IMG/VR virus record: IMGVR_UViG_3300030406_002810
Location: 1 to 29,124 of that record
From: a virus
Reading direction: 5' to 3' (one strand)
DNA length: 29,124 nucleotides
Below the pieces are notes generated by a model. The model did not search any database. It had not been told where the DNA came from and saw only the letters and a program-made list of their open reading frames with translations. The position numbers and the translations under genes are program-made. Shown in pieces: positions 5,522 to 26,229 of the stretch. Position 1 is the stretch's first letter. The number at the start of each line of letters is the position of its first letter.

Positions 5522-5620
5522 CCAGGTAACAATTTTGTAATTTTTTAAAAACTAATTTTAAATGAAAGATTAAGAAAAAATAAAAAATAATTTTAAAAAT
5601 CATTTGAAAAAAGTTTTTAA
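5522..5620. repeat. Module-border inverted repeat, left arm
   Basis: Two blocks match the reverse complement of the right border in the same order: CCAGGTAACAATTTTGTAA (5522-5540) against 8982-9000, 18 of 19 identical, and 5595-5620 against 8933-8958, 24 of 26 identical. Poly-A/T content lowers the weight of the second match, but the first contains non-trivial sequence. Both arms point into the module. Confidence 0.55.
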
Positions 5621-5756
5621 TTTTTTTTGGTTCATTTTTTACCCTGCTGTAATTTTTTGAAACCTGCTGTTTAAAAAAAATAATTTTAAAAAAAATATTT
5701 TTGCTTATTAAAAAAAGATTTAAACTTTTTAAAACTTAAAAATAGGAGCGGTTCAA

Positions 5757-24081: not shown

Positions 24082-25113
24082 TTACGTTACAACTCTAACT
24101 GCTGCTTCAGGACGAAGAACTCCATGACCCATAGCATATTTAGCGACTAAGGCTGTGCCTTGTTTAGTCATAATATACTCTGACTCAGTAGTTAAGTCCA
24201 TTAACTTAACAGTACCGATAGCTGCTTTGTGTCCCGCAAGGAACTCTAAAGTAGAACCATCGATGTTATAACCTGTTCCTGACGCACCTGCAACATCATT
24301 GTTGGAGTTGTCATCATCTTGGTCTTGTGATGCTTCAGCAACTGCAATATCTGATAAGTGAGTAGATTTCACAATATCAATACCTGCAACTTGTAGAACA
24401 CTACCTGACGCTAAGCTACCACCTGTACCTGCATTGAATCTGCTGTCAAGTGTAATAGCTGTTGAATCAGCACCTGCTAGTTTGTAGTAGTCAGCAGGTT
24501 TTAAGATAGCGAATCTGTCACCACTAGGGATATCATTTTCGTCTAACTTTTGAGCAACTAATGTTAGTGCTTGAATAAGCTTAGCCGCTGTAGCGATGTC
24601 AGCAGGAGCACCTGTAGTAGAACCTAAGTTAATAGTAATACCACCATTACCACCTATAAGACTCGCAGAGTCAGCAGTAGCTGCTAATGTTTTCATTGTA
24701 GCAATGTCGAAACGCTTAGCAAGAGCTTTACCTAATTCCTTAGAGTATATGCTTCTTACATCATAATGATTTTGCATTTCATCGATGTTAGCAATGAATG
24801 TTGAAGCTAATAGAACTTTATCAATATTGATTGTTCTTTCAGCATGTTTAATTTGAGAAGTGTAGTTAGAGCTAGACTCTAATATATCTTCTCCTACAGT
24901 ATGATACTTCGCAGAAGCAACACCTGTAATAGGGAACTGAGCACTTTTCCCTGATGATATTGTACGAACAGTATGAAGGTCTTTCATTACGTTAACTTCT
25001 TCAAACGTAGTAAGAACTTCATTCGCAAACACCTTCAAGAACAACTCAGTAAAGTTGGTTCCTGTATTATTTACAAGACCCAAACGTGACGCATTGAAGT
25101 CGCCATTTGCCAT
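24082..25113 (-). CDS. Major capsid protein (T7 gp10A-like)
   Basis: HK97-fold shell protein. 343 residues, close to T7 gp10A (345). Recognisable: RTISSGKSAQFPITGVASAKYHTVGEDI, then ERTINIDKVLLASTFIANIDEMQNHYDVRSIYSKELGKALAKRFD, and C-terminal KQGTALVAKYAMGHGVLRPEAAVRVVT, as in podoviral capsids. The ribosome-binding site is AAGGAGG. No frameshifted minor capsid form is evident. Its 5' region is unusual: a riboswitch-peptide cassette and two stem-loops precede it, and a strong terminator follows. Confidence 0.95.
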   Translation of the reverse strand: MANGDFNASRLGLVNNTGTNFTELFLKVFANEVLTTFEEVNVMKDLHTVRTISSGKSAQFPITGVASAKYHTVGEDILESSSNYTSQIKHAERTINIDKVLLASTFIANIDEMQNHYDVRSIYSKELGKALAKRFDIATMKTLAATADSASLIGGNGGITINLGSTTGAPADIATAAKLIQALTLVAQKLDENDIPSGDRFAILKPADYYKLAGADSTAITLDSRFNAGTGGSLASGSVLQVAGIDIVKSTHLSDIAVAEASQDQDDDNSNNDVAGASGTGYNIDGSTLEFLAGHKAAIGTVKLMDLTTESEYIMTKQGTALVAKYAMGHGVLRPEAAVRVVT

Positions 25114-25190
25114 AATAATCCTCCTTATGGATTAGTTGTTATTGTTGTTATTTGTTGAAGTGTCCTTTTCGCACATTTGGCTTTTGAGTT

Positions 25191-25206
25191 GTCCGACGCA
25201 TCGGGC
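25191..25206 (-). other. Stem-loop in the capsid 5' leader
   Basis: GTCCGA, loop CGCA, TCGGGC on the plus strand (one G-U pair), about 80 bases before the capsid start. No T-run follows, so it is more likely an mRNA stability or processing structure than a terminator. Confidence 0.45.
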
Positions 25207-25246
25207 TCACTAGTTACTCTGAACTAATTTAGACTCGAAATCGATA

Positions 25247-25264
25247 AGGGAGACAAAGCTCCCT
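25247..25264 (-). terminator. Stem-loop after the 19-residue peptide, terminator-like
   Basis: Minus strand AGGGAG, loop CTTTGT, CTCCCT, starting five bases after the peptide stop. The loop and stem design closely match the terminator after the capsid gene (GGGGGC-TTTGT-GCCCCC), but the following DNA (TATCGATTT) is a poor U-tract on this strand. It may be a weak terminator or attenuator; on the plus strand it is followed by a T-run. Confidence 0.5.
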
Positions 25265-25268
25265 AATT

Positions 25269-25328
25269 TTATTTTTTTACAATTTTAATGTATTTAGTAC
25301 CTCTGTAATTCAATACTATTTCTTGCAT
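25269..25328 (-). CDS. 19-residue downstream peptide with LxYRGxxY motif
   Basis: A complete micro-ORF, MQEIVLNYRGTKYIKIVKK, with a very good Shine-Dalgarno (GGAGG, six-base spacing to ATG). The L-x-Y-R-G-x-x-Y core is the hallmark at the start of DUF4278 mini-proteins from cyanobacteria and their phages. It lies 22 bases after the riboswitch-like RNA, the arrangement that gave 'Downstream-peptide' RNAs their name (peptides of about 17-100 residues). Role unknown; possibly a small regulator under glutamine control. Confidence 0.78.
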   Translation of the reverse strand: MQEIVLNYRGTKYIKIVKK

Positions 25329-25350
25329 TTAATACCTCCATGGTTGGATG

Positions 25351-25396
25351 CGTTCCTTCACAGACTATCTGCTACTTCCGAGGTTACCCTTGAACG
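25351..25396 (-). promoter_or_regulatory. Glutamine riboswitch (Downstream-peptide/glnA motif)
   Basis: Minus-strand RNA of 46 bases with the class architecture: P1 CGUUC (25396-25392) pairs with GAACG (25355-25351). P2 is AGG-GUAA-CCU (25390-25381), capped by a GNRA tetraloop. The conserved joining sequence CGGAAGUAG follows (25380-25372). P3 is CAGA-UAG-UCUG (25371-25361), and the conserved UGAAGGAACGC closes the core. These invariant blocks match the glutamine-sensing glnA/Downstream-peptide consensus. ACCUC in P2 (25384-25380) can instead pair with GAGGU in the peptide's Shine-Dalgarno (25338-25334). Ligand-stabilised P2 should therefore free the ribosome-binding site, predicting activation by glutamine. 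Confidence 0.87.
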
Positions 25397-25403
25397 TATT
25401 AAA

Positions 25404-25658
25404 TTATGCTCTTTTTATTTTTAAACTAACACGTGCAGGACGTGTATTAGCTACAAATTGTTTTCCTTTTGCTCCTGCTTTCTTTTTCTTTCTTGCAGTA
25501 GCAGCTCGTTGTGCTTTACTAAGACTCCTAGCTTTAGCCATAGGTAAACATCTATCAGGATTCTTTTTATTTTTACTGGTTCCACATTTACCTTTTATAG
25601 ACCCATCTGTTCCTATACGTACCCAGTTTTGTCTTCTCCATTTAGCTAGTTCCCCCAT
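25404..25658 (-). CDS. Basic small protein with WRRQNWVRI motif
   Basis: 84 residues. MGELAKWRRQNWVRIGTDGS is followed by KGKCGTSKNKKNPDRCLPMAKA and a Lys/Arg/Ala-rich tail. Two cysteines flank a GTSKNKKNPDR segment. This sequence type recurs as a small conserved protein in marine phages (possibly DUF5872); I know no established function. Strongly basic, so DNA or RNA binding or packaging with the genome is plausible. Its ATG shares a base with the stop of the preceding gene. Confidence 0.7.
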   Translation of the reverse strand: MGELAKWRRQNWVRIGTDGSIKGKCGTSKNKKNPDRCLPMAKARSLSKAQRAATARKKKKAGAKGKQFVANTRPARVSLKIKRA

Positions 25659-25962: not shown

Positions 25963-26229
25963 TTAGCATCTCCATTTTCTTAACGCCAACGCTTTTCTCG
26001 TTGGTCTACCCTTGCTATCTTTCATAGCACCTTTAACTCCACGCATCCTTGCACAGAACGATTTTCTTCTTTTAGCAGCTTTACTACCACGCTTTACTTT
26101 ACCTGTAACAGGACGTTGTAGATTACCGCCAGTAGCACGATTATACTTTCTTCTTCCTTTTTCAGATAATCCACCTGTAGGATTCTTATCTGCTTTAGTC
26201 ATGCTAACACTTAATTTTTTTCTTTTCAT
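25963..26229 (-). CDS. Basic protein, DUF6321-like
   Basis: 88 residues. MTKADKNPTGGLSEKGRRKYNRATGGNLQRPVTG, then KRRKSFCARMRGVKGAMKDSKGRPTRKALALRKWRC, matches a small conserved phage protein family that I recall as DUF6321. The family motif begins at the internal Met (residue 10), so the true start may be there rather than at the ATG directly after the 28-residue peptide stop. Highly basic with two cysteines. Function unknown. Confidence 0.72.
   Translation of the reverse strand: MKRKKLSVSMTKADKNPTGGLSEKGRRKYNRATGGNLQRPVTGKVKRGSKAAKRRKSFCARMRGVKGAMKDSKGRPTRKALALRKWRC

Follow-up and report, generated by a model that had tools for sequence, protein, structure and literature searches.

Type-1 glutamine riboswitches in cyanobacteria activate DUF4278 and IF17 genes in response to glutamine, and IF17 can function without its DUF4278 part (PMC6316151). 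When the ligand binds, G23 is inserted and pairs with C60 beside the base of helix P1 (PMC11477058). Phage riboswitches in the literature are few and are mostly single cases. Glutamine riboswitches have been reported in methylophage Melnitz and pelagiphage Mosig (PMC9004378), and the reported phage cases include Prochlorococcus phage AG-345-P14 and T4-like cyanophages (PMC9004378, PMC9602691, PMC9964418), the latter being mentioned in two papers (PMC9602691, PMC9964418). No description of a micropeptide cassette was found in the literature searched, which is weak evidence that the cassette analyzed here is new to the literature.

This study was concerned with the record of a marine bacterial virus, 29,124 bases long (32% G+C), the whole of which is referred to as the window. 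The window encodes a single-subunit, T7-type RNA polymerase together with capsid, portal, scaffold and terminase proteins (PHROG families phrog_414, 267, 449, 1052 and 38), which is the gene set of a T7-like (Autographiviridae type) phage. The first-pass annotation had described a glutamine riboswitch and a 19-residue peptide within a T7-like structural operon, between basic mini-protein genes and the major capsid gene, and both the setting and the position were correct (Table 1). Of the named records, that of the uncultured Ayaqvirus MedDCM-OCT-S45-C18 is closest (terminase 70%, capsid 53%, polymerase 41%), and among isolates the terminase is nearest to those of Roseobacter and Pelagibacter phages. 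The second small basic protein is common to cyanophages, pelagiphages and methylophages, so it does not single out a host group. In contigs that carry the cassette but are unrelated in other respects its identity reaches 91%, and judging by this it was recently exchanged between phage lineages.

Table 1. Features of the cassette and its surroundings in the window.
Feature	Position	Strand	Basis or remark
Type-1 glutamine riboswitch aptamer (RF01739)	25347..25398	-	full-length 43-bit match, covariation in relatives
Aptamer P1	25396-25392 / 25355-25351	-	sequence
Aptamer P2	25390-25388 / 25383-25381	-	sequence
Aptamer P3	25372-25368 / 25364-25360	-	sequence
Conserved aptamer blocks CGGAAGUA and GAAGGAACGC	within 25347..25398	-	sequence
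C equivalent to crystal-structure C60	25350	-	just after P1
Possible OFF fold, 25404-25396 (AUUUAAUAC) paired with 25335-25327 (GUAUUAAAU)	25327..25404	-	minimum-free-energy fold
Shine-Dalgarno GGAGG of micropeptide	25335..25339	-	sequence
Micropeptide ORF, 19 aa MQEIVLNYRGTKYIKIVKK, DUF4278-N-terminus-like	25269..25328	-	sequence, codon pattern, cyanobacterial counterparts
Stem-loop GGGAG-CUUUGU-CUCCC after micropeptide, weak U tail	25248..25263	-	sequence; counterparts in most relatives
Conserved structured leader of capsid gene, outside riboswitch cassette	25146..25245	-	covariation, model search; no Rfam match
Major capsid gene	24082..25113	-	phrog_267, E 7e-72
Small basic protein gene upstream of cassette	25404..25658	-	phrog_23735, unknown function
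Second small basic protein, unknown function	25963-26229	-	

RF01739 (Glutamine) was the sole match when the whole window was scanned with cmscan against all of Rfam. The match covers model positions 1-53 of 53 and scores 43 bits against a gathering threshold of 35, with an E value of 2.2e-6 for the whole window and 4.9e-8 when the local stretch alone was rescanned. The Downstream-peptide model, RF01704, gave no match to the local stretch even at E<=5 in a covariance-model scan. The aptamer is therefore of the glnA (type-1) kind and not of the Downstream-peptide kind. The first-pass annotation had given it the joint label glnA/Downstream-peptide and had proposed an Infernal search with both models; the first half of the label was borne out, whereas the second half has to be dropped. 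The three-helix junction and invariant blocks that it had read at 25396-25351 are all present. Comparison of 28 distinct cassettes showed 99.7% of helix cells to be paired and two-sided changes at 7 of the 13 helix pairs, a covariation score reached by none of 500 shuffles. The covariation falls in P2 and P3, since P1 is invariant across the 28 sequences and is thus uninformative in this respect. At the level of sequence comparison, the window RNA is confirmed as a glutamine riboswitch aptamer that belongs to an established family.

Downstream of the aptamer lies the micropeptide ORF, which begins with an ATG at 25328 (-) and carries the N-terminal LxYRGxxY motif of DUF4278 directly after the aptamer. 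Cyanobacterial aptamer-linked ORFs start alike, with MKLxYRGxxY (for example, MKLTYRGVSY). In the genome contigs, the matches with the GGAAGUA block run into such LxYRG ORFs, and their titles are cyanobacterial; the non-cyanobacterial matches in the genome scan were regarded as chance, with no GGAAGUA block ahead of them. The inhibitory C-terminal part of IF17 has no counterpart in the window ORF, which ends after 19 residues. The micropeptides, which are too short, give no match to DUF4278 (PF14105) in Pfam. Three longer phage YRG peptides, each preceded by a glutamine aptamer or the same aptamer block, do pass the gathering cut-off (26-29 bits versus 25.3).

The cassettes were collected from IMG/VR with a search pattern that combined the 3' block of the aptamer with VxLxYRG. 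This pattern matched 52 stretches in all, which together with the loci already collected gave 47 distinct cassettes. Each is made up of the aptamer, a peptide of 16-20 amino acids and often a stem-loop, in many cases close after the stop codon. Nearly all of the peptides have 16-20 residues and the form M(E)VxLxYRGxxYxKxxK, with a common core of VxLxYRGxxYxK. Over 31 distinct codon rows pN/pS was 0.30, a value that indicates purifying selection and is partly shaped by the search pattern, and there were 2950 third-position differences versus 1393 and 1229 at the other positions. The Y at +5 and the K at +7 fall outside the search pattern and are invariant in all 31 rows despite synonymous codon changes. 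These patterns support the DUF4278-like micro-ORF claimed from the window alone as a real short peptide, and the stem-loop claimed to follow it is also present. On the coding strand this stem-loop does not score as a terminator and on the + strand it is terminator-like by score; it is a possible terminator or processing site.

These results bear on two alternative explanations. In one, the aptamer is real but exerts its effect through transcription or the stability of the RNA, or is simply an RNA that responds to glutamine, and the peptide has no function of its own. The stem-loop that lies close after the stop codon in many cassettes would suit this explanation, as would the small predicted change in Shine-Dalgarno exposure described below. 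We consider it unlikely, because the core motif is conserved at the amino-acid level with synonymous change and the spacing from Shine-Dalgarno to ATG is consistent across the cassettes. The other explanation treats the unit as a relic, an aptamer and a truncated DUF4278 gene captured from a cyanobacterium and both inactive in the present host. The peptide retains only about the first ten DUF4278 residues, while the cyanobacterial proteins mostly have 56-160 amino acids, and the present host is possibly not a cyanobacterium. A relic would decay, so the covarying helices, the retention of the invariant bases and the codon conservation of the peptide count against it. Together with the many lineages and positions in which the cassette occurs, they make a relic unlikely.

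The settings of the cassettes were compared through homology of the surrounding genes to window genes, and both the positions and the phage lineages proved to be unrelated. The cassette stands before the capsid gene in the window, L001 and L003, after the terminase in L188, L424, L427 and L439, after an SSB-like gene in L163, beside a holin-like gene in L127 and the L418 group (several of them contigs of about 38 kb), and before an HK97-like phage terminase/portal in L088 and L112. In L188 the cassette comes after two small genes with homologues in the window as well as after the terminase. Twelve of the 13 whole contigs searched contain exactly one cassette and the remaining contig has two, near its ends. 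A TTGAC promoter box lies upstream of the aptamer in 24 of the 47 distinct cassettes, and clear terminators close the cassettes of L163 and L155. The aptamer, the conserved peptide, their repeated association, the varied positions, the promoter boxes and the terminators can thus all be read directly in the sequences. Among sequenced phage isolates nothing credible was found by blastn with two cassettes or by tblastn with a 20-residue peptide, and an RF01739 search of nine named phage records was negative for all nine.

Glutamine aptamers as such are common in aquatic phages, since at least 120 stretches in IMG/VR match a strict glutamine-aptamer pattern and all 19 sampled loci pass the RF01739 cut-off. 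These counts and the published phage cases (PMC9004378, PMC9964418) contradict the rarity claimed in the first-pass annotation. Several of the other loci differ from the cassette in their architecture. L203, L204, L206, L213 and similar loci carry tandem or variant glutamine aptamers in which GACGCAAACGCCGACUGAAGGAACGC replaces CGGAAGUA, and these precede double-YRG peptides of 42-55 amino acids. L203 passes RF01739, while L206, L219 and L226 do not, and the GACGCAAACGCCGACUGAAGGAACGC type is possibly an under-modelled aptamer variant. L173 has a glutamine aptamer at 5563-5622 (-) and a two-YRG peptide of 36 amino acids adjoining a T4-type capsid-like gene, which makes it a second and independent case of a location next to a capsid gene. 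Lastly, in the presumed T4-like L083, L092, L095 and L101 the glutamine aptamers lie within about 2 kb of freshwater-2 RNAs, with manA RNAs also present in three of the four; these aptamers are part of a local regulatory-RNA cluster.

The position of the window cassette had suggested that the nitrogen status of the cell could tune capsid or late expression. In this view the riboswitch would control capsid and late-gene expression, the amount of capsid mRNA depending on how the stem-loop at 25263-25248 folds or is read through in response to glutamine, with the micro-ORF as a leader peptide. In the window, L001 and L003 the cassette does immediately precede the capsid gene, at an aptamer-to-gene distance of 262-266 bases, and it remains beside the capsid gene in L001, where the upstream genes differ from those of the window and L003. 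In addition, no promoter belonging to the window cassette itself could be recognized, and the capsid mRNA could therefore be subject to polar effects. We nevertheless regard capsid control as improbable for several reasons. First, the survey of relatives found the cassette in only three of the 74 loci of the window's capsid family. The two closest insert-bearing relatives (89% and 82% capsid identity) have the same cassette at the same distance upstream, but it is absent from L002 (78%) and from every more distant relative, 71 of 74 loci in all, which suggests a single insertion in a subclade, or else that L002 has lost the cassette. Secondly, in other phages the cassette often stands alone, with a terminator or stem-loop directly after the peptide. 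Third, on the coding strand the U tail of the window stem-loop is weak, and the stem-loop does not score as a terminator there. Lastly, a separate conserved leader RNA lies between the window cassette and the capsid start. Regulation of the capsid by glutamine is thus unlikely.

This capsid leader consists of a closing helix and an inner hairpin with GCCC...GGAYAAC, and it has counterparts in L001-L079, which are T7-like marine phages. Two-sided changes occur at 10 of its 15 pairs, and no slid version comes near this. A model built here found the leader directly upstream of the capsid gene in 39 of the sources searched, some of them outside the model-building set. Weak matches were obtained in three isolates, Prochlorococcus phage P-SCSP2 and the Pelagibacter phages HTVC168P and HTVC142P, in each case immediately before the capsid gene. 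It may be a more novel element than the riboswitch.

The peptide, rather than the capsid, is likely the regulated product. The stand-alone units hold little besides the peptide, and the varied positions and lineages, promoter boxes, terminators, purifying selection and P2/P3 covariation all lead to the same conclusion. As far as sequence comparison can tell, the switch probably regulates the micropeptide and not the shell protein.

How it would do so was approached by secondary-structure modelling. The first-pass annotation had predicted that ACCUC in P2 pairs with the GAGGU of the Shine-Dalgarno; this stretch reads AGCUC in the two closest relatives, L001 and L003, so the pairing is not conserved. 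The possible OFF fold in Table 1 would cover the last G of the Shine-Dalgarno and the start codon of the window, according to the minimum-free-energy prediction. Its z-score is only -1.16, and by inspection it is partly kept in L001 and L003. Enforcing the aptamer raised Shine-Dalgarno exposure from 0.70 to 0.73 across 45 cassettes, and from 0.17 to 0.27 in the window, where the start codon became slightly less exposed. Simple secondary-structure folding therefore does not predict glutamine-ON translation for the window, and this small change lends no support to switching. The bases that immediately follow P1 are able, in most cassettes, to pair over the start codon, as in CACU-AA-CAUUG-(SD)-CAAUG-GA-AGUG, and the unpaired probability of the start codon is below 0.2 in 22 of 36 distinct leaders (shuffled mean, 0.56). 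This hairpin was rejected as a general feature, as it is missing from most of the L088 group and only partial or unclear in the window, and its variation tracks phage groups, so its covariation is weak evidence. Where it forms, glutamine binding could pull the leader out of the start-codon hairpin. An ON response in translation would fit, by analogy, the published behavior of type-1 switches (PMC6316151). Glutamine binding, the ON direction and translational control are inferences.

The reading that we favor, and consider fairly probable, is an exchangeable cassette in which glutamine switches a YRG micropeptide, high glutamine leading to peptide translation, with the peptide as the output and the capsid gene as a neighbor. 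Each unit would have a type-1 glutamine riboswitch in its 5' leader, then the 16-20 residue micropeptide and, in most instances, a stem-loop at its end. At low glutamine the start codon or Shine-Dalgarno would be masked by the leader RNA. At high glutamine the aptamer would close, a pair would form between the G of CGGAAGUA and the C directly following P1, and translation of the micropeptide would proceed. The window unit would ride on the late operon, and many other phages would use their own host-type promoter box. Our guess is that the micropeptide may act on host nitrogen assimilation or another DUF4278-related target. A more far-reaching version, which we hold to be doubtful, is that unrelated marine phages, possibly infecting heterotrophic bacteria, share a self-contained cassette that moves horizontally. 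Its micropeptide would be an effector triggered by glutamine that acts on the nitrogen metabolism of the host or on the timing of infection, and opening of the start-codon hairpin would be coupled to the G-C pair formed at the aptamer base on glutamine binding.

A sensor-peptide-stem-loop unit that recurs with its parts kept while its position changes suggests that phages sense how much nitrogen the cell has and respond by making a peptide. Given its small size, the unit could be synthesized, assayed for a glutamine response and used to find the host target. Phages appear to keep just the first DUF4278 segment, so the cassette also informs on the role of the YRG motif.

Among the known systems close to the window unit are type-1 switches (RF01739) such as that of Synechocystis gifB/IF17, with which it shares the architecture, the conserved blocks and an LxYRG (DUF4278-type) ORF immediately 3'. 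The window unit differs from gifB in that it is found in a phage and its ORF, a matter of 16-20 codons, lacks both the remainder of DUF4278 and the C-terminal part of IF17. The type-2 Downstream-peptide RNAs (RF01704) of marine picocyanobacteria, whose published ligand is also glutamine, likewise have a short DUF4278-like peptide 3', but the window aptamer lies outside that family. Melnitz and Mosig, phages of streamlined marine heterotrophs, resemble the window in having a glutamine aptamer in a phage; theirs is linked to the tmRNA region of a T4-like myophage, whereas that of the window precedes a YRG micropeptide in a T7-like phage and belongs to a cassette that recurs across lineages. The T4-like cyanophage type (here L082-L101 and L173) also combines an aptamer with a small ORF, but its small proteins are longer and mostly different (about 26-65 amino acids) from the window peptide. 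The riboswitch family is known; its setting here, and its place in a compact micropeptide cassette that changes genome position, represent a new variation on it.
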